Positions 2,022 to 7,634 of a stretch of DNA of 32,058 nucleotides are shown here, piece by piece. Location of the stretch: the NCBI GenBank assembly GCA_903838415.1, contig CAILYI010000268.1:1-32058 (forward strand). Direction: 5' to 3'. The DNA comes from an uncultured Anaerolineae bacterium. Lineage in GTDB: Bacteria; Chloroflexota; Anaerolineae; Anaerolineales; Villigracilaceae. The notes under the pieces were generated by a model that was given only the letters and a program-made list of their open reading frames with translations, ran no database searches and had not been told where the DNA came from. Made by a program: the position numbers and the translations under genes. Position 1 is the first letter of the stretch; the number at the start of each line of letters is the position of its first letter.

Positions 2022-2107
2022 AGCCAATCTGAAAGCAGGTTTTGCGTTCATCGAGCCACCGTATTATCAAGGGCTCTATAAGTATTATTTTCTGTATCGA
2101 GGCATTT

Positions 2108-4321
2108 ATGACCACCATCGTAGGACAATCTGTTCCACGTATTGATGCAAAAGAGAAAGTAACCGGCGCGGCACAGTATTCTGGCGATATCGTCATGCCG
2201 GGCATGCTCCACATGAAGCTTTTATTCGCGGATAGACCCCATGCCCGCGTGCTGAGTATCGACACATCCGCAGCCGAGGCGCTGGCGGGAGTGGCAGCTG
2301 TGCTGACCGCCAAGGATGTGCCGGTCAACGAATATGGCCTGCAAATCAACGATCAACCCGTGCTATGCGGCCCCGGTTCCAGCAAAGCTGGCGGAGATAT
2401 CATCCGCTTTGTGGGCGACCAGGTGGCGATTGTTGTTGCTGAAACCGAGCAAATCGCCGCCAAAGCCGTCAAGCTGATCAAGGTTGAATACGAAAATCTT
2501 CCAGTCATCACAGATGCAGAGGAAGCCATCAAACCGGGAGCGTATGCGCTGCACCCCGAAATTGGCGTTTCGAACATCTGCGTGCACGACAAAATCCGCA
2601 AAGGCGATGTGGAAGCTGCTTTCGCCAAGTCTGATGTCATCGTGGAGGGCGAATACCGAGTTCCTGTGCAGGAACACGCGTATTTACAACCTGAAGCCGG
2701 TGTGGCTTATGTGGATGAGAATGGCCTGCTGACCATTAAAGCCGCCGGTCAATGGACACATGCTGACCAGAAACAAATCGCCCATGCGCTCGGACTGCCA
2801 CAGGATCAGGTCCGCGTGCAATACCCGGTGATTGGCGGCGCTTTCGGCGGACGTGAAGACATGTCAGTGCAAATTGTGCTGGCCCTGGCGGCATTCAAAC
2901 TCAAAAGGCCGGTCAAAACCATCTGGTCCCGCAAAGAATCATTGTTCGGACACGGCAAACGGCATGCCATGGTCATCCGGGCTAAATGGGGCGCGACCAA
3001 AGACGGCAAACTGACTGCCGCAGAAACAACCTTTATCGCTGATGGCGGCGCCTACATGTACACCAGCAACAAAGTGCTGGGGAATGCCACCATCACCCAA
3101 ACCGGTCCGTACTACATCCCCAACTTCAAATCGGATGTATATGGCGTTTACACCAATAACGTGCCCGGCGCAGCTTTCCGCGGATTCGGCGCGCCTCAGG
3201 CGCAGTTCATGGCTGAGATGCAAATGAACAAGCTGGCCGAAAAACTGGGACTCGACCTGGTGGAATTCCGTCTACGCAACACGCTGAAAGAAGGCGATAC
3301 GCTGGATGTACAAACCCCGGCTGTCGGCCCGATTTCCACGGTTCAAGTCATCGAAGCGGCGGCGCGGCGCGCAGGCTGGGATAAAACCTCGCAGGGCTGG
3401 AAACGCGTCGAAAACGGACAATCAGCGGCTGGAAAATCTCCATCCAATCTTGTTCGAGGAGTTGGCCTGGCGGCTGGCTTCAAAAACATTGGATTCAGTT
3501 TTGGCTATAAAGATAATTGCTGGGCTCGCGTAGAAATCTATGGAAATGGTTCGATTGAACGCGTGGTGGTCTACAACGCCGCCGCCGAAGTCGGACAGGG
3601 AAATCACACCATCCTGGCGCAATTAGCGGCCGAAGCCATTGGCATATCTTTTGACAAAGTGGAAATGATCACGATGGACACGCTTAACATGGGCAGCGCC
3701 GGGTCGGCTTCAGCCTCACGGCTGACCTTCATGTCGGGGAATGCTGTCAAGGGCGCGGCAGAGCGGGCACGCGCAAAATGGGATGCCGAAGAACGGCCGG
3801 TCGTTGTCGAATATACGTATTTCGCCCCTGAAACCACACCTTTCGACAAGGAAACTGGGGAGTGCTTGCCCAATTTCGCGTACGCCTATGTTGCCCAGGC
3901 CGCGGAAGTGGAAGTCGATACCGAAACTGGTCAGATTCGTGTTTTGAAGATTATCTCCGCGGACGATGTTGGAAAAGCTATCAACCCGGCGCAGGTGGAA
4001 GGCCAGATTGAAGGCGGCGTAGTGCAAGCTATCGGCTATGTGATGATGGAAAACTACATTTCACGCGATGGCTACGTACTGACTGATCAATTCAGCACCT
4101 ATCTCATCCCCACCATTCTGGATATTCCGGTGAAAGTCGAATCGCTGGTAGTTGAAGTCCCGGACGAGCGTGGCCCCTGGGGCGCAAGAGGTTTGGGCGA
4201 ACTACCCTATTTGCCGATGGCCCCTGCCATCATGGCAGCCGTCCACGATGCGACGGGTGTTTGGTTCGATGAATTTCCGCTAACCCCAGAAAGAGTGCTG
4301 CGAGGTTTGGGAAAAATCTAA
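2108..4321 (+). CDS. Molybdenum hydroxylase catalytic (molybdopterin-binding) subunit
   Basis: This 737-residue protein is the molybdopterin-binding, substrate-oxidising subunit of the xanthine dehydrogenase/aldehyde oxidase/CoxL superfamily. The start at 2108 is preferred over 2042 because MTTIVGQSVPRIDAKEKVTG is the family N-terminus and GAGG sits five bases upstream. Residues ~15-125 form the a/b hammerhead domain. The molybdopterin-binding motifs are GGAFGGRED (243-251), AAFRGFGAPQ (355-364) and EVGQGNH (494-500), followed by a GSAGSASASR segment. The putative catalytic Glu is E698 in GLGEL. The selenocysteine/cysteine CoxL loop (AYxCSFR) is not seen, so CO oxidation is not indicated; a purine or another N-heterocycle or aldehyde is more likely. 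The region between ~568 and 575 appears a little shorter than usual. It closes the operon and is followed by a terminator. Confidence 0.92.
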   Translation: MTTIVGQSVPRIDAKEKVTGAAQYSGDIVMPGMLHMKLLFADRPHARVLSIDTSAAEALAGVAAVLTAKDVPVNEYGLQINDQPVLCGPGSSKAGGDIIRFVGDQVAIVVAETEQIAAKAVKLIKVEYENLPVITDAEEAIKPGAYALHPEIGVSNICVHDKIRKGDVEAAFAKSDVIVEGEYRVPVQEHAYLQPEAGVAYVDENGLLTIKAAGQWTHADQKQIAHALGLPQDQVRVQYPVIGGAFGGREDMSVQIVLALAAFKLKRPVKTIWSRKESLFGHGKRHAMVIRAKWGATKDGKLTAAETTFIADGGAYMYTSNKVLGNATITQTGPYYIPNFKSDVYGVYTNNVPGAAFRGFGAPQAQFMAEMQMNKLAEKLGLDLVEFRLRNTLKEGDTLDVQTPAVGPISTVQVIEAAARRAGWDKTSQGWKRVENGQSAAGKSPSNLVRGVGLAAGFKNIGFSFGYKDNCWARVEIYGNGSIERVVVYNAAAEVGQGNHTILAQLAAEAIGISFDKVEMITMDTLNMGSAGSASASRLTFMSGNAVKGAAERARAKWDAEERPVVVEYTYFAPETTPFDKETGECLPNFAYAYVAQAAEVEVDTETGQIRVLKIISADDVGKAINPAQVEGQIEGGVVQAIGYVMMENYISRDGYVLTDQFSTYLIPTILDIPVKVESLVVEVPDERGPWGARGLGELPYLPMAPAIMAAVHDATGVWFDEFPLTPERVLRGLGKI

Positions 4322-4340: not shown

Positions 4341-4387
4341 AACGGTGTAAAGACTGAAAGACACAGTCTTTACACCGTTATTTTTTT
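4341..4387 (+). terminator. Rho-independent terminator of the molybdenum hydroxylase operon
   Basis: A perfect 16-bp stem (4341-4356 with 4364-4379) and a 7-base loop are followed by an A and seven T on the + strand. It starts 20 bases after the stop of the molybdopterin subunit. Confidence 0.92.
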
Positions 4388-4409: not shown

Positions 4410-4451
4410 AAGAAAACCCGCCGCTGGATGAGGGGGGCATCCAACGACGGG
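4410..4451 (-). terminator. Rho-independent terminator of the orphan riboswitch unit
   Basis: On the minus strand 4451-4438 pairs with 4430-4417 (14 bp including two G-T pairs) around a C-rich 7-base loop, and TTTTCTT follows at 4416-4410. There is no T run on the other side, so it works for minus-strand transcription only. It begins seven bases after the closing stem of the riboswitch-like element. Confidence 0.82.
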
Positions 4452-4457
4452 TACTTC

Positions 4458-4572
4458 GCACTTTGTGGCAGTCTGGCGGTCGTGATCAGTTCTACCAATA
4501 CAGCCTGCTCTGATTTTAGGCCCATGACTTTGCGTCGCTTGCTTTCACAAGCTTTGCTATTTGTCGAAGTGC
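4458..4572 (-). ncRNA. c-di-GMP-I (GEMM-I)-like riboswitch, orphan
   Basis: Read on the minus strand, this stretch carries the hallmarks of GEMM-I RNAs in the right order: ATAGCAAAGC (4560-4551), the P2 hairpin GCTTGTGAAAGCAAGC with a GAAA tetraloop (4552-4537), the linker GACGCAAAG (4536-4528), and a P3 helix beginning GTCATGGGCCTAAA with the CCTAAA...GGTAG tetraloop receptor (GGTAG at 4496-4492). A closing P1 stem can form between 4572-4567 and 4463-4458. The family binds cyclic di-GMP or, in variants, cGAMP. The 3' core (GACCGCCAGACTGCC) fits the consensus less well. No gene lies downstream on this strand: the element is convergent with the molybdenum hydroxylase operon and lies 3' of the sensor kinase gene. 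Confidence 0.7.
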
Positions 4573-4578
4573 ACTGTT

Positions 4579-4607
4579 ATTATTACATAAATTTTCATTT
4601 GAAGCAA
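4579..4607 (-). promoter_or_regulatory. Predicted promoter of the orphan riboswitch
   Basis: On the minus strand TTGCTT (4607-4602) and AATAAT (4584-4579) are separated by 17 bases. The predicted start of transcription falls at about 4572, the first base of the P1 stem of the riboswitch-like RNA. The -10 box matches five of six consensus bases, the -35 box only three. The surroundings (4573-4640) are AT-rich and hold no gene. Confidence 0.45.
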
Positions 4608-4669
4608 TATGATTTTTCATTCCTAATAAAATTGTAAGGTGCTCGCAATGATCTCACAAAACGATAAGT

Positions 4670-5836
4670 TTATTTCGCAAATGGCAGTGTGAAGAAAAAT
4701 GTACTGCCCTGTCCTTCGCCTGCGCTTTCAACCCAGATGCGCCCCGCGTGGGCTTCAACCATGTGCTTCGCTATCGTCAACCCAATGCCTGAGCCGCCAC
4801 CAGCCGCGCGCGAGCGGGATTTATCCACGCGATAGAAACGGTCAAAGATGTTGGTCAAGCTTTCAGCCGGGATGCCGATGCCGCTATCTTTGACGGAAAG
4901 CTGCATTTCGCCATCAATTTTTGCCGCCGAAACGACCACTTCACCACCAGACGGGGTATAGGCCAGGGCATTTCCGATTAAATTTGTCAGGACCTGGGTA
5001 ACGCGATCTTCGTCAGCCAGAACCGGCGCAAGGTCTGAAGCAAGGTTGCGGGTGAGAGTCACGTGCTTTTCATCATATTGATACTGAAGCCGTTTGATGG
5101 TCGTCTCCACCAACATAGAAATCATGACCGGATGAATATCCAAACGATACGAGCCAGCTTCCACGCGGCTGAGTTCCTGCAAATCATCCACCAACCGGCT
5201 GAGTCGGCTGGCTTCCATGCGCACTTGCTCAAAGGTTTCGGGCGTGACCGGCAAAACACCATCGATCAGGCCTTCCATGTATCCGCCAATGGCGGTGAGC
5301 GGCGTGCGCAGTTCATGGCTGACGTCGCCGATTAACTGGCGGCGCATGGATTCAGTTTGCTCAAGGCGTTCGGCCATGCGGTTGAAGCGCCCTGCGAGTT
5401 GGCCCAATTCATCAGAACCACTGACCTGCACGCGTTCGTCGTAGCGACCATCAGCAATGCGCTGGGAGGCGCTCATCAAAGCCTGTAAAGGGGCCACAAT
5501 CTGGCGGCTAAAGAAAATACTGACAACAACCGCTACGAGAATGGCCGCCAGCGTGGCATACGCAATCGCTGACAATACCCCAGCGCGGAAATTGGTAAAA
5601 CCCAATCCCTGGCCTTGCCCCAGCGCGCGTCCCATGCCCGAACCGGGCACGACACCATCCATCATGCCACGGGCAGGCGCGCCGTTGACAATCATCGCAC
5701 CACTCTCCATGTAATGACTGTAAGCGGCCGGAGTTGAAAAAAACACGACGATAATCAAAACCGCCACACCAACCAGTAAAACTGCCAGGTAGGAGAGCAA
5801 AATTTTGGAACTGATATGTTCCCGAATGTATTTCAA
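4670..5836 (-). CDS. Membrane sensor histidine kinase (HAMP, BaeS-like)
   Basis: A 388-residue two-component sensor. Transmembrane helix 1 is at ~12-34, a short extracytoplasmic loop rich in Gly and Met follows (~35-84), and helix 2 is at ~85-108. The HAMP domain is ~109-161. The dimerisation domain carries the phospho-acceptor His174 in DVSHELRTPL. The ATP-binding domain has the N-box Asn289 (NLIGNALAYTP), the G1 box DSGIGIP (317-323) and the G2 box GSGIGLTIAK. All catalytic motifs look intact. The start is a TTG that overlaps the stop of the response regulator gene by four bases (TTGA), so the two are translationally coupled. The small Met-rich sensor loop could suggest envelope or metal sensing, but the signal cannot be read from sequence. 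Confidence 0.93.
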   Translation of the reverse strand: MKYIREHISSKILLSYLAVLLVGVAVLIIVVFFSTPAAYSHYMESGAMIVNGAPARGMMDGVVPGSGMGRALGQGQGLGFTNFRAGVLSAIAYATLAAILVAVVVSIFFSRQIVAPLQALMSASQRIADGRYDERVQVSGSDELGQLAGRFNRMAERLEQTESMRRQLIGDVSHELRTPLTAIGGYMEGLIDGVLPVTPETFEQVRMEASRLSRLVDDLQELSRVEAGSYRLDIHPVMISMLVETTIKRLQYQYDEKHVTLTRNLASDLAPVLADEDRVTQVLTNLIGNALAYTPSGGEVVVSAAKIDGEMQLSVKDSGIGIPAESLTNIFDRFYRVDKSRSRAAGGGSGIGLTIAKHMVEAHAGRIWVESAGEGQGSTFFFTLPFAK

Positions 5837-6513
5837 ACCGGCTCATCCTCAAAGCGATAACCCACACCGCGCACAGTGGCAATTAATTCATCACCGTTGA
5901 TTTTTTGGCGCACATGCCCCAGGTGAACATCCACCACGCGCATTTCGCCAAAATACGAACCGCCCCACACTTTTTCGAGTAACTGTTCACGGGTCAGCAC
6001 GCGTCCGCGATTTTCGGCCAGGGCTTTGAGCAAATCAAATTCGATGGCGGTAAATTCGATCGGTTGACCGTCCACCGTTACAGAACGTGCGGCGGAATCG
6101 ATCGTGACCCGTTTAAAGGCCATGACGGTCGACTCCCCGAAACCTGTCCCCTTTTGCTGACGGCGCAACGCCGCCTTGATTCTCGCTACCAGCTCGCGGG
6201 GGCTGAACGGTTTCGTGACGTAATCGTCGGCCCCAACCGATAAACCGATAATTTTATCGGTTTCCTCGGTTTTCGCCGTCAACAGGATCACATACACATC
6301 CGATTCGCGGCGCAGGCGTGAGAGCAGTTCAATCCCATCCAGGCCGGGAAGCATCAGATCGAGCACGATTAAATCGGGCTTGTAGGCCTTGGCAGCCTTC
6401 AGACCCGTTACGCCATCAGCAGCGGTAAAAACTTCATAGCCTTCGGGCTTAAGATACGCGCTGACCAGATTGACAATGGACGGTTCGTCATCAATAATGA
6501 GGATTTTTGACAT
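5833..6513 (-). CDS. OmpR/PhoB-family response regulator
   Basis: A 226-residue regulator and the partner of the kinase that follows it. The receiver domain (1-~115) has the acidic pair D8/D9, the phospho-acceptor D52 (VLDLMLPGLDG), T79 and K101. The winged-helix DNA-binding domain (~130-224) has the typical FTAIEFDLLKAL, the recognition region VVDVHLGHVRQKI and the closing TVRGVGYRFED. The start ATG has only a weak upstream GGA. The leader (6514-6600) is AT-rich and probably contains the promoter of this two-gene operon, but no convincing -35/-10 pair was found. Its targets are unknown. Confidence 0.95.
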   Translation of the reverse strand: MSKILIIDDEPSIVNLVSAYLKPEGYEVFTAADGVTGLKAAKAYKPDLIVLDLMLPGLDGIELLSRLRRESDVYVILLTAKTEETDKIIGLSVGADDYVTKPFSPRELVARIKAALRRQQKGTGFGESTVMAFKRVTIDSAARSVTVDGQPIEFTAIEFDLLKALAENRGRVLTREQLLEKVWGGSYFGEMRVVDVHLGHVRQKINGDELIATVRGVGYRFEDEPV

Positions 6514-6640: not shown

Positions 6641-6817
6641 TCACATCATTTGGATCAGCGGCCCTTTACCAGTCAAGATGGCTTCGGGGTCTTTCTCGAA
6701 GGTACGCTTGCAGCCAGGGGCGCAGAAGTAATATGTTTTGCCGTTATATTCAGATTTCCACTGGGCGGTTTCGGTTTCAACCTTCATTTTGCAGACAGGA
6801 TCAATTTCAATAGACAT
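6641..6817 (-). CDS. Small YHS-domain protein
   Basis: A 58-residue protein consisting of little more than one YHS domain. The motifs are DPVCKMKV at residues 6-13 and TYYFCAPGCKRTFEKDPEA in the middle, giving three cysteines (C9, C33, C37) that in this family are proposed to bind metal such as copper or heavy metals. The start has a strong AAGGAG six to seven bases upstream. It is divergent from the NYN gene with only 40 bases between the two starts, so their promoters share that gap. A hairpin terminator follows. Its short length means it is easily missed by automatic gene finding. A role as a metallochaperone or metal-resistance accessory is suggested by the family only. Confidence 0.88.
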   Translation of the reverse strand: MSIEIDPVCKMKVETETAQWKSEYNGKTYYFCAPGCKRTFEKDPEAILTGKGPLIQMM

Positions 6818-6845
6818 ACAAAGCTCCTTTCAGGATTTAAGCAAG

Positions 6846-6851
6846 TATAAT
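6846..6851 (+). promoter_or_regulatory. Perfect -10 box directly before the NYN gene (leaderless mRNA predicted)
   Basis: TATAAT lies six bases before the ATG at 6858, the distance at which transcription normally starts. The mRNA would therefore begin at or next to the start codon. There is no Shine-Dalgarno sequence. No good -35 box is visible; that region doubles as the Shine-Dalgarno and leader of the divergent YHS gene. Confidence 0.55.
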
Positions 6852-6857
6852 AAAAAT

Positions 6858-7634
6858 ATGCCAGAAGAGCAAATCTCATCCCTTTCAAGACGAAAAATCG
6901 CCATGTTGATCGACGGCGATAATGCCCAATCCAGCCTTTTGCCGCAAATGTTGGTGGAAGCCGGCAAGTACGGCATGGTTACCGTCCGCCGAATTTACGG
7001 CGATTGGACCACACCCAATATGAATTCATGGAAGGATGTGCTGAACTTCCACGCCATCCAACCGATTCAACAATTCCGCTACACCATCGGCAAAAACGCC
7101 ACCGACAGCGCCATGATCATCGACGCAATGGATATCATGCACTCGAGAGTAGTCGACGGTTTCTGCCTGGTCTCGAGCGACAGTGATTATACCCGCCTCG
7201 CCACCCGCATTCGAGAATCCGGCATTTTTGTGATGGGCATCGGAGAAAAGAAAACGCCCAAGCCTTTTGTCAATGCCTGCGACGTGTTTGTCTACACAGA
7301 AAACCTGGTCACCGAAGCAAAACCTGCCAAGCCACGCATCCGCAAGCCAACCACCACCAACAGCGGCAAAAAGAAAGAAGAAAAAGAAGAGAAAGAAGAA
7401 GCCGACCCGATGCCTATCCTTGAAAAAGCCTTTGAAATGGCTGTGCAGGAAGATGGCTGGGCCCGCCTCGACCACATGGGCAACGCGCTTTACCAACTGG
7501 ATCCGGGTTTCGACCCACGCACCTACGGTCAGCGCCAACTCTCGCGGCTGGTGGGAAATCTCAAAGACTATTTTGAAATGCGCTCACAGGAAACAGACGG
7601 GTCAAACCTGTTTTACGTCAAAATGAAGGAATAA
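6858..7634 (+). CDS. NYN-domain ribonuclease-like protein with C-terminal LOTUS/OST-HTH domain
   Basis: A 258-residue protein of the LabA/DUF88-type NYN family, PIN-fold proteins that are thought to cut RNA. The domain covers ~10-150 and keeps the acidic residues: D19 and D21 in LIDGDN, D83 in NATDSAM, D108 and D110 in SSDSDY. A lysine/glutamate-rich linker (~160-183, GKKKEEKEEKEEAD) leads to an OST-HTH/LOTUS domain (~185-258), an RNA-binding winged helix in other proteins. The start at 6858 is chosen because the NYN domain begins right after it and an upstream TATAAT would make the longer frame untranscribed. An RNA-processing or RNA-decay role is inferred. It is monocistronic, with a strong terminator 20 bases downstream. 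Confidence 0.88.
   Translation: MPEEQISSLSRRKIAMLIDGDNAQSSLLPQMLVEAGKYGMVTVRRIYGDWTTPNMNSWKDVLNFHAIQPIQQFRYTIGKNATDSAMIIDAMDIMHSRVVDGFCLVSSDSDYTRLATRIRESGIFVMGIGEKKTPKPFVNACDVFVYTENLVTEAKPAKPRIRKPTTTNSGKKKEEKEEKEEADPMPILEKAFEMAVQEDGWARLDHMGNALYQLDPGFDPRTYGQRQLSRLVGNLKDYFEMRSQETDGSNLFYVKMKE

Follow-up and report, generated by a model that had tools for sequence, protein, structure and literature searches.

Riboswitch aptamers are mostly taken to be elements that control genes in cis, and free-standing examples are rare. When the open-access literature was screened by title and the beginning of abstracts, the merRNA of Bdellovibrio bacteriovorus was the sole case of another free-standing c-di-GMP aptamer RNA. 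In the consulted part of its description, merRNA is a non-coding RNA of 445 nt with one riboswitch, has no conserved downstream frame and is conserved only in Bdellovibrio, and its authors proposed that it serves as a reservoir for c-di-GMP (PMC3627812). Three c-di-GMP-I units in tandem make up Bc3-5 of Bacillus thuringiensis, which the excerpt consulted describes as three complete riboswitches in the cspABCDE 5'-UTR (PMC4759541). A survey from 2022 counted, in the section used here, 347 doublets and 12 triplets of tandem GEMM elements (PMC9481103), and the portion consulted of a 2025 survey of contiguous riboswitches names Chloroflexota once, for a general riboswitch enrichment (PMC12452182). 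The cGAMP riboswitches (GEMM-Ib) of Geobacter and its relatives are placed upstream of genes in the parts of the reports drawn on here (PMC6456294, PMC8835794, PMC9481103), and an A at the selectivity position is given as the mark of cGAMP-responsive variants in the pertinent section of one of them (PMC9481103).

Here we consider a 32,058-nt stretch of DNA (the window) from an uncultured Anaerolineae bacterium, one region of which is, judging from sequence comparison, a reduced copy of an RNA gene that is specific to one lineage and has three cyclic-dinucleotide units. The RNA resembles c-di-GMP-I riboswitches (RF01051) in aptamer sequence and structure, and in its relatives the pocket bases are nearly invariant. 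Unlike those riboswitches, it has no downstream gene here and no visible expression platform, the three units of the relatives share one outer stem, and the window aptamer carries A rather than G. It shares with merRNA the absence of coding capacity, the aptamer and the lack of a conserved downstream frame, but in relatives it has three units in about 275 nt. In contrast to Bc3-5, its tandem units have no terminators between them and no gene in common, and it differs from the cGAMP riboswitches, whose A it shares, in having no gene in cis. We found no prior description of a triple-GEMM RNA in the open-access literature, a scope that leaves most subscription journals outside.

A single aptamer in a convergent gap

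A first-pass annotation had proposed an orphan GEMM-I aptamer on the minus strand of a convergent gap, and the covariance model bears this out. In an Rfam scan of the whole window on both strands, RF01051 (c-di-GMP-I) was the sole match, at 4464-4568 (-), with 62.7 bits against a gathering threshold of 35 bits (E 3.5e-10, model positions 1-87), and the GEMM-I signatures that had been named are present in the minus-strand letters. From closing stem to closing stem, the RNA occupies 4454-4574 (-), as delimited by sequence and by the positions of the promoter and terminator. The 5' arm of the closing stem (TGCACTT, 4567-4573) pairs with the 3' arm (AAGTGCG, 4457-4463) in the predicted fold, and the counterparts of both arms covary in relatives. 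Two registers had been suggested for this stem as a possible switch. Both can be written, but only the pairing of 4573-4567 with 4463-4457 matches the closing stem of the relatives, and the switch itself finds no counterpart there: in none of the other 15 RNAs compared is the closing stem followed by CGAAGT, and the terminator arms pair with the RNA no better than shuffled sequence does.

The promoter-like pair lies as described, with TTGCTT at 4607-4602, a spacer of 17 nt and AATAAT at 4584-4579, all on the minus strand. The -10 hexamer has a TG one base ahead and sits in the same position as in relatives. The -35 hexamer is weak, relatives mostly having TTGAAA or TTGAAT; because it fits TTGACA at only 3/6 positions, the pair is missing from a generic promoter scan. 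The proposed rho-independent terminator was likewise found just 3' of the aptamer, as a hairpin at 4452-4416 (-) that begins 4 bases past the closing stem, has 15 pairs (9 of them G-C) and a loop of 7, and is followed by the tail TTTTCTTAAC at 4415-4406. These signals predict a transcript from about 4573 to about 4408, roughly 165 nt long. Of 200 shuffled versions of the 181-nt stretch, 199 fold less well than the native sequence (z -3.9). The 128 nt that leave out the terminator are unremarkable (z -0.8, with 43 of 200 shuffles equal or better), so it is the covariance model that carries the argument for an aptamer.

Upstream on the same strand lie a sensor histidine kinase gene (4670-5836; Pfam HAMP, HisKA, HATPase_c) and a gene for an OmpR/PhoB-type response regulator (5833-6513; Pfam Response_reg and Trans_reg_C, with MtrA and PhoB as best NCBIfam matches, below cut-offs). 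Downstream, the next gene is convergent and encodes the molybdopterin-binding subunit of a xanthine-dehydrogenase-like hydroxylase (2042-4321, +; Pfam MoCoBD_1, MoCoBD_2, Ald_Xan_dh_C). As had been noted, no minus-strand gene follows: past 4416 there is only the antisense of the hydroxylase gene, and the window has no gene-like frame of at least 80 codons downstream of the RNA on that strand. There is thus no gene to control in cis at this locus. The hydroxylase gene is followed by a strong terminator-like hairpin of its own (4341-4379, +; 16 pairs, tail ATTTTTTTAT), so both converging units have a terminator. Farther along, at 6738-7634 (+), the window holds an NYN and OST-HTH/LOTUS gene, likely for an RNA-binding protein or nuclease, and in eight relatives from the two-component clade the RNA has homologues of this gene group (c8) nearby.

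The genome to which the window belongs (G000) has 10 RF01051 matches, among which the window element is the weakest. Three of the 10 (L004 506-582, L006 1502-1592 and L007 1298-1386) fit c-di-GMP-I-GGC (RF03167) best.

The triple-GEMM RNA of related genomes

We searched 61 genomes for RF01051 and, within the genus, for homologues of the window kinase. The orphan arrangement was to be sought in related genomes, and the same place is indeed occupied there, but by an RNA with three units where the window has one. Six genomes of the genus (G001, G002, G004, G005, G006 and G010) show a kinase gene, then 80-100 nt, then two or three GEMM matches on the same strand at a pitch of about 85 nt, and then a convergent hydroxylase gene. 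The RNA of the relatives, about 275 nt long, has three tandem GEMM-I units and a closing stem that brings its two ends together, and it comes with a sigma-70 promoter close to consensus and with a terminator; in order, these are the promoter, TTGCACTTCGA or similar, the three adjacent units, CGAAAAGTGCAA or similar, and the terminator. The triple RNA is also found in different surroundings in other genera.

An alignment of 15 copies (A1), made free of structure, was used for structure prediction. RNAalifold returned the helices of three GEMM-like units plus an outer stem joining both ends, with 96.8% of 897 cells able to pair and 42 of 60 pairs varying on both sides. The covariation score of these 15 RNAs was 0.569, compared with 0.240 (sd 0.013) in shuffled and 0.029-0.103 in slid alignments, the slid control favouring the structure since it was derived from A1 itself. 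The arms of the closing stem paired better with their own partners (14.84) than with swapped ones (mean 13.31, maximum 13.95 in 200 swaps), although an arm-to-arm helix other than the closing stem came out best in 9 of the 66 RNAs.

A covariance model built for the triple RNA (R1) gave 62 matches of 211-272 bits, one per genome, in 62 of 152 genomes of the family and, by hand count, in 11 genera; the next best score was 156. Five matches of 138-156 bits, all in genus g23, appear to represent a diverged version of the triple RNA. In these five (L269-L273), the closing stem is longer (e.g., GAACGCTC with GAGCGTTC) and the selectivity positions read A-G-G in 5/5. Matches of at least 210 bits numbered 10 among 396 genomes of the class and 10 among 400 of the phylum, in identical genomes that all belong to this family, under the stricter filters that apply to searches over more than 40 genomes and that lose weak matches. 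Within the genus of the window organism (11 genomes), the triple RNA is present in eight, the single form in G000, and neither in G007 and G009. Two public records that contain the triple RNA, CAIVSQ010000400.1 (L106) and CAIJPN010000142.1 (L107), are both labelled uncultured Anaerolineae bacterium. For the one RNA compared with Rfam (L228), parts are described only as RF01051, and a distant blastn search with the same intact RNA found no match in 50,697 phage records that would indicate a phage origin. Frames that start with ATG within the 62 RNAs range from 6 to 68 codons and share no length.

The ligand pocket is nearly invariant. In units 1, 2 and 3, respectively, the first G of the GC pair is present in 62, 62 and 62 of 62 RNAs, its C partner in 62, 62 and 61, and the A after it in 62, 61 and 62. 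Three working sites are not assured, since the middle unit is often degenerate, with no RF01051 match in L228 and none listed for G004 and G006.

Model position 11, which we take to be G20 of Vc2, is the position that bears on selectivity. Among the 62 RNAs, it is A in 51 and G in 11 for unit 1; A in 56, G in 5 and C in 1 for unit 2; and G in 45, C in 12, A in 4 and a gap in 1 for unit 3, so that the pattern A-A-G runs across the units of 38 RNAs. In the window aptamer it is A (4558), as in GEMM-Ib, and not the G of the c-di-GMP type. Other GEMM-I units in the sampled loci have G in 53, A in 11, C in 4 and T in 2 (n = 70), and against these the enrichment of A gave Fisher p values of 5e-15 for unit 1 and 4e-19 for unit 2, which are indicative only because the sequences are related. 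These 70 control units were collected by regular expression from loci L001-L039 (without L010) and L084-L105, are mostly best-scoring and are biased to the consensus. It is possible, though we think it unlikely, that two cGAMP-type (A) aptamers and one c-di-GMP-type (G) aptamer form a hetero-specific buffer or a ratio sensor, without control of an adjacent gene. In Hypr GGDEF proteins, as presented in the part of the source consulted, Ser replaces the canonical Asp (PMC6456294). A Hypr enzyme was considered as a source of cGAMP and was not found among the domains examined in G000 and G018: in G000, the 15 distinct domains examined of 32 matches all have Asp and none the Hypr-type Ser, which is also absent from the 13 of 17 examined in G018 (11 Asp, 1 Asn, 1 misaligned). 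Within that scope, this speaks against a cGAMP reading. Since every one of the 152 family genomes has GGDEF domains, a link between GGDEF content and the RNA is uninformative.

The family also contains GEMM doublets, which look like ordinary leaders. Their two units are separated by a terminator-like hairpin, and the gene called next codes, at 6 of 8 loci, for a protein with the conserved motif RGVY...QQP...AHN; the loci are C138 6305-6596 of G000 (L278, L007) and seven similar ones (L274-L277, L279-L281).

Promoters, terminators and neighbours

Statistics on promoters and stems were taken from 66 RNAs, 61 strong and 5 divergent (genus g23), L253 being left out because it lies at a contig edge. 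The best upstream -35/-10 pair reached a score of 9/12 or more in 61 of the 66, a level attained by 96 of 3000 positions drawn at random from these loci. Spacer length is 17 in 59 of 66, a TG stands one base ahead of the -10 hexamer in 51, and the end of the -10 hexamer is at most 7 nt from the R1 start in 65, so the predicted transcription start coincides with the 5' arm of the closing stem. A terminator is present in 65 of 66, 0-15 nt beyond the R1 end.

The promoters also have upstream elements that are specific to individual clades. With one mismatch allowed, TAGAACANNTGAGTGATTGAA occurs once per genome in 39 of 152 family genomes, and its reversed control never; 37 of the 39 sites are just upstream of a strong R1 match, one (G137 C105) precedes a partial R1 match at a contig end, and one (G147 C264) is on a contig with no R1 match listed. 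Because this pattern and that of the 11-nt repeats described below were written after the sequences had been seen, the counts show specificity and not discovery. In 37 genomes, a near-invariant TAGAACA-N2-TGAGTGATTGAA lies some 46-49 nt ahead of the RNA, one copy in each (e.g., G018 C1 2991738-2991758). A LexA-like operator (TAGAACA..TG) was considered for this place and dropped by eye, its second palindromic half being absent from most loci.

In 8 of 9 intact loci of the two-component clade, 11-nt direct repeats of the CTTANA type lie upstream of the RNA; L070 is without them, and the window keeps one half, ACCTTACAAT at 4631-4640 (-), which repeat comparison identifies as a remnant of the element. 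All 10 matches to the repeat pattern on both strands of the nine loci (165 kb) lie upstream of the RNA, and the one match in the window lies upstream of the regulator gene. The OmpR/PhoB-type regulator encoded beside the RNA may bind these repeats, and may in this way control the RNA.

Neighbouring genes were called as ORFs of 80 aa or more by a simple picking rule, so that short ones may be spurious, and were grouped by single-linkage blastp; the group names were taken from the Pfam matches of a few members. The upstream neighbour is a HlyD-like gene in 42 of 62 loci and a kinase gene in 7, with others making up the remainder; two upstream neighbours scored as divergent (L231 and L260) are probably broken hlyD genes and were not used as evidence. 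Downstream, 45 of the 62 loci have a gene on the same strand (ruvB in 32, others in 13), 14 have a convergent gene, and 3 have none or reach the contig end. The early proposal of a free-standing small RNA gains from this comparison, because the block made up of promoter, RNA and terminator stays together across 62 genomes and 11 genera as the neighbours vary, which supports the reading that it would be a free-standing transcription unit, independent of both neighbours.

Two further early suggestions tied the RNA to its neighbours. One made it a 3'-UTR element of the sensor-kinase operon, and in the window and six relatives it does lie on the same strand about 100 nt past the kinase stop. Yet the RNA has what appears to be its own promoter, and its upstream neighbour is HlyD-like in most loci and divergent in two: in L070 (G008), it is flanked by a divergent NYN-like gene (its NCBIfam match is weak) and by the hydroxylase gene, and a two-component operon is not adjacent, and in L066 (G003) it lies upstream of the two-component operon, its opposite flank being taken by a divergent glycosyltransferase gene. 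We regard a 3'-UTR element of the kinase operon as very improbable. The other suggestion, ligand-controlled antisense transcription against the molybdenum hydroxylase, draws on the fact that read-through of the terminator would enter 2042-4321 in antisense; but the hydroxylase gene is downstream in only 7 of 62 intact relatives, and no switchable pairing is visible, which leaves scarcely any weight to this explanation. A fixed tie to the kinase was also rejected: of 59 kinase loci, the 35 from named genomes were searched, and the RNA is present at only 2 of these. Second close homologues of the kinase occur in G001 (C22 2395-3537, L072; 62% identity) and G005 (C412 14337-15491, L073; 57% identity), genomes that also have the RNA-linked kinase, and a search with the GEMM core word found no GEMM beside either homologue.

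An argument can also be made that the RNA is an ordinary riboswitch with a conditional terminator, for example for ruvB in the main clade, and that the window copy is a relic that has lost its gene. The same-strand position of ruvB in about half of the loci is consistent with this, as is the cis role of known tandem GEMM riboswitches in the parts of the literature drawn on (PMC9481103, PMC4759541). But other genes take that position in 13 loci, and in the 14 convergent cases (three of them ORFs of 91-113 aa that may be spurious) the RNA cannot be a leader. Moreover, the pairing expected of an aptamer/terminator switch was not seen in 61 relatives, where complementarity of the terminator arms to the RNA averaged 13.92 versus 13.98 for shuffled sequence, with 24 of 61 above their own control; in the window, the hairpin begins past the closing stem. 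The doublets of the family differ as well, having a hairpin between the units and then a conserved gene. We judge the conditional terminator to be quite unlikely as a general explanation, with regulation of ruvB in cis conceivable for the main clade.

The reduced copy and a putative messenger buffer

Against R1, the window RNA scores 65.1 bits (E 7.7e-20), spanning 4574-4326. It agrees with the triple-GEMM RNA in its neighbourhood, in where its promoter lies, in its closing stem and in its terminator, with a weak -35 hexamer and an incomplete repeat element; in place of three tandem units it has one hybrid unit, which makes it a derivative and not a full member. The single aptamer (4464-4568, -) combines parts of units 1 and 3 of the relatives. 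In comparison with nine relatives, its first 20 nt have an identity of 0.65-0.85 to unit 1, 0.45-0.60 to unit 2 and 0.30-0.50 to unit 3, and its last 30 nt have 0.70-0.80 to unit 3, 0.43-0.63 to unit 1 and 0.33-0.57 to unit 2. For whole halves, the 3' half has a mean identity of 0.68 to unit 3 versus 0.51 and 0.48 to the others. The 5' half has 0.73 to unit 1 versus about 0.65 and 0.64 to units 2 and 3, after removal of the L068 values for units 2 and 3, which were anchor failures, and with several relatives giving no value because the anchor word was absent. Since the margin in the 5' half is modest, we lean on the end segments. The window copy is best read as one hybrid aptamer from which the stretch between units 1 and 3 has been lost; a deletion, or a collapse in assembly, would have fused unit 1 to unit 3 and left one unit.

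The copy could instead be a decayed, non-functional relic, or an intact triple RNA collapsed in assembly. The single unit, the weak -35 hexamer and the incomplete 11-nt repeat all fit such a history, as does the state of the G000 assembly (5.67 Mb in 311 contigs, with 8.63% contamination). However, the aptamer, its pocket bases, the closing stem and the terminator are all intact, and the longest exact words that units 1 and 3 share in the nine relatives are at most 15 nt, which is short for a collapse and makes one less likely. On balance we hold decay or collapse to be unlikely.

We infer that the RNA is transcribed and that, given its aptamer, it would bind a ligand, putatively a cyclic dinucleotide. 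The RNA has, on sequence comparison, its own promoter and terminator and no downstream gene in the window, as in merRNA. Our preferred reading, to which we assign a probability of about one half, is that it is a free-standing RNA gene whose product binds cyclic dinucleotides and buffers or sequesters the messenger, with its supply set at the promoter. A sigma-70 promoter would start transcription at the 5' arm of the closing stem, the stem would hold the cyclic-dinucleotide-binding units (three in the family, one in the window), and transcription would end at the intrinsic terminator a few bases after the stem. The RNA would then buffer or sequester c-di-GMP, perhaps also cGAMP, in amounts set at the promoter and, in this genus, possibly by the adjoining two-component system. 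We propose buffering because no gene follows, no pairing for an aptamer/terminator switch is visible and there is almost no room for an antisense seed, and we place it first because only the aptamers and the end signals are conserved.

The evidence for a free-standing unit would serve equally well for a ligand-gated RNA acting in trans, in which binding of the messenger changes pairing with an mRNA or capture of a protein. In the window and in L064 and L068 the terminator loop contains CCCCCCT, for which G-rich sites would be possible pairing partners. But this loop sequence is not common to the other RNAs compared, and the 0-15 nt between the R1 end and the terminator stem offer little room for a seed; a role in trans seems to us somewhat unlikely.

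A single-copy, triple-unit RNA gene of this kind, shared by dozens of genomes within a single Anaerolineae family that also has ordinary GEMM leaders, would make RNA buffering of bacterial second messengers directly testable, and the A/A/G pattern across its units would offer a natural test of how selectivity evolves in GEMM-I aptamers.
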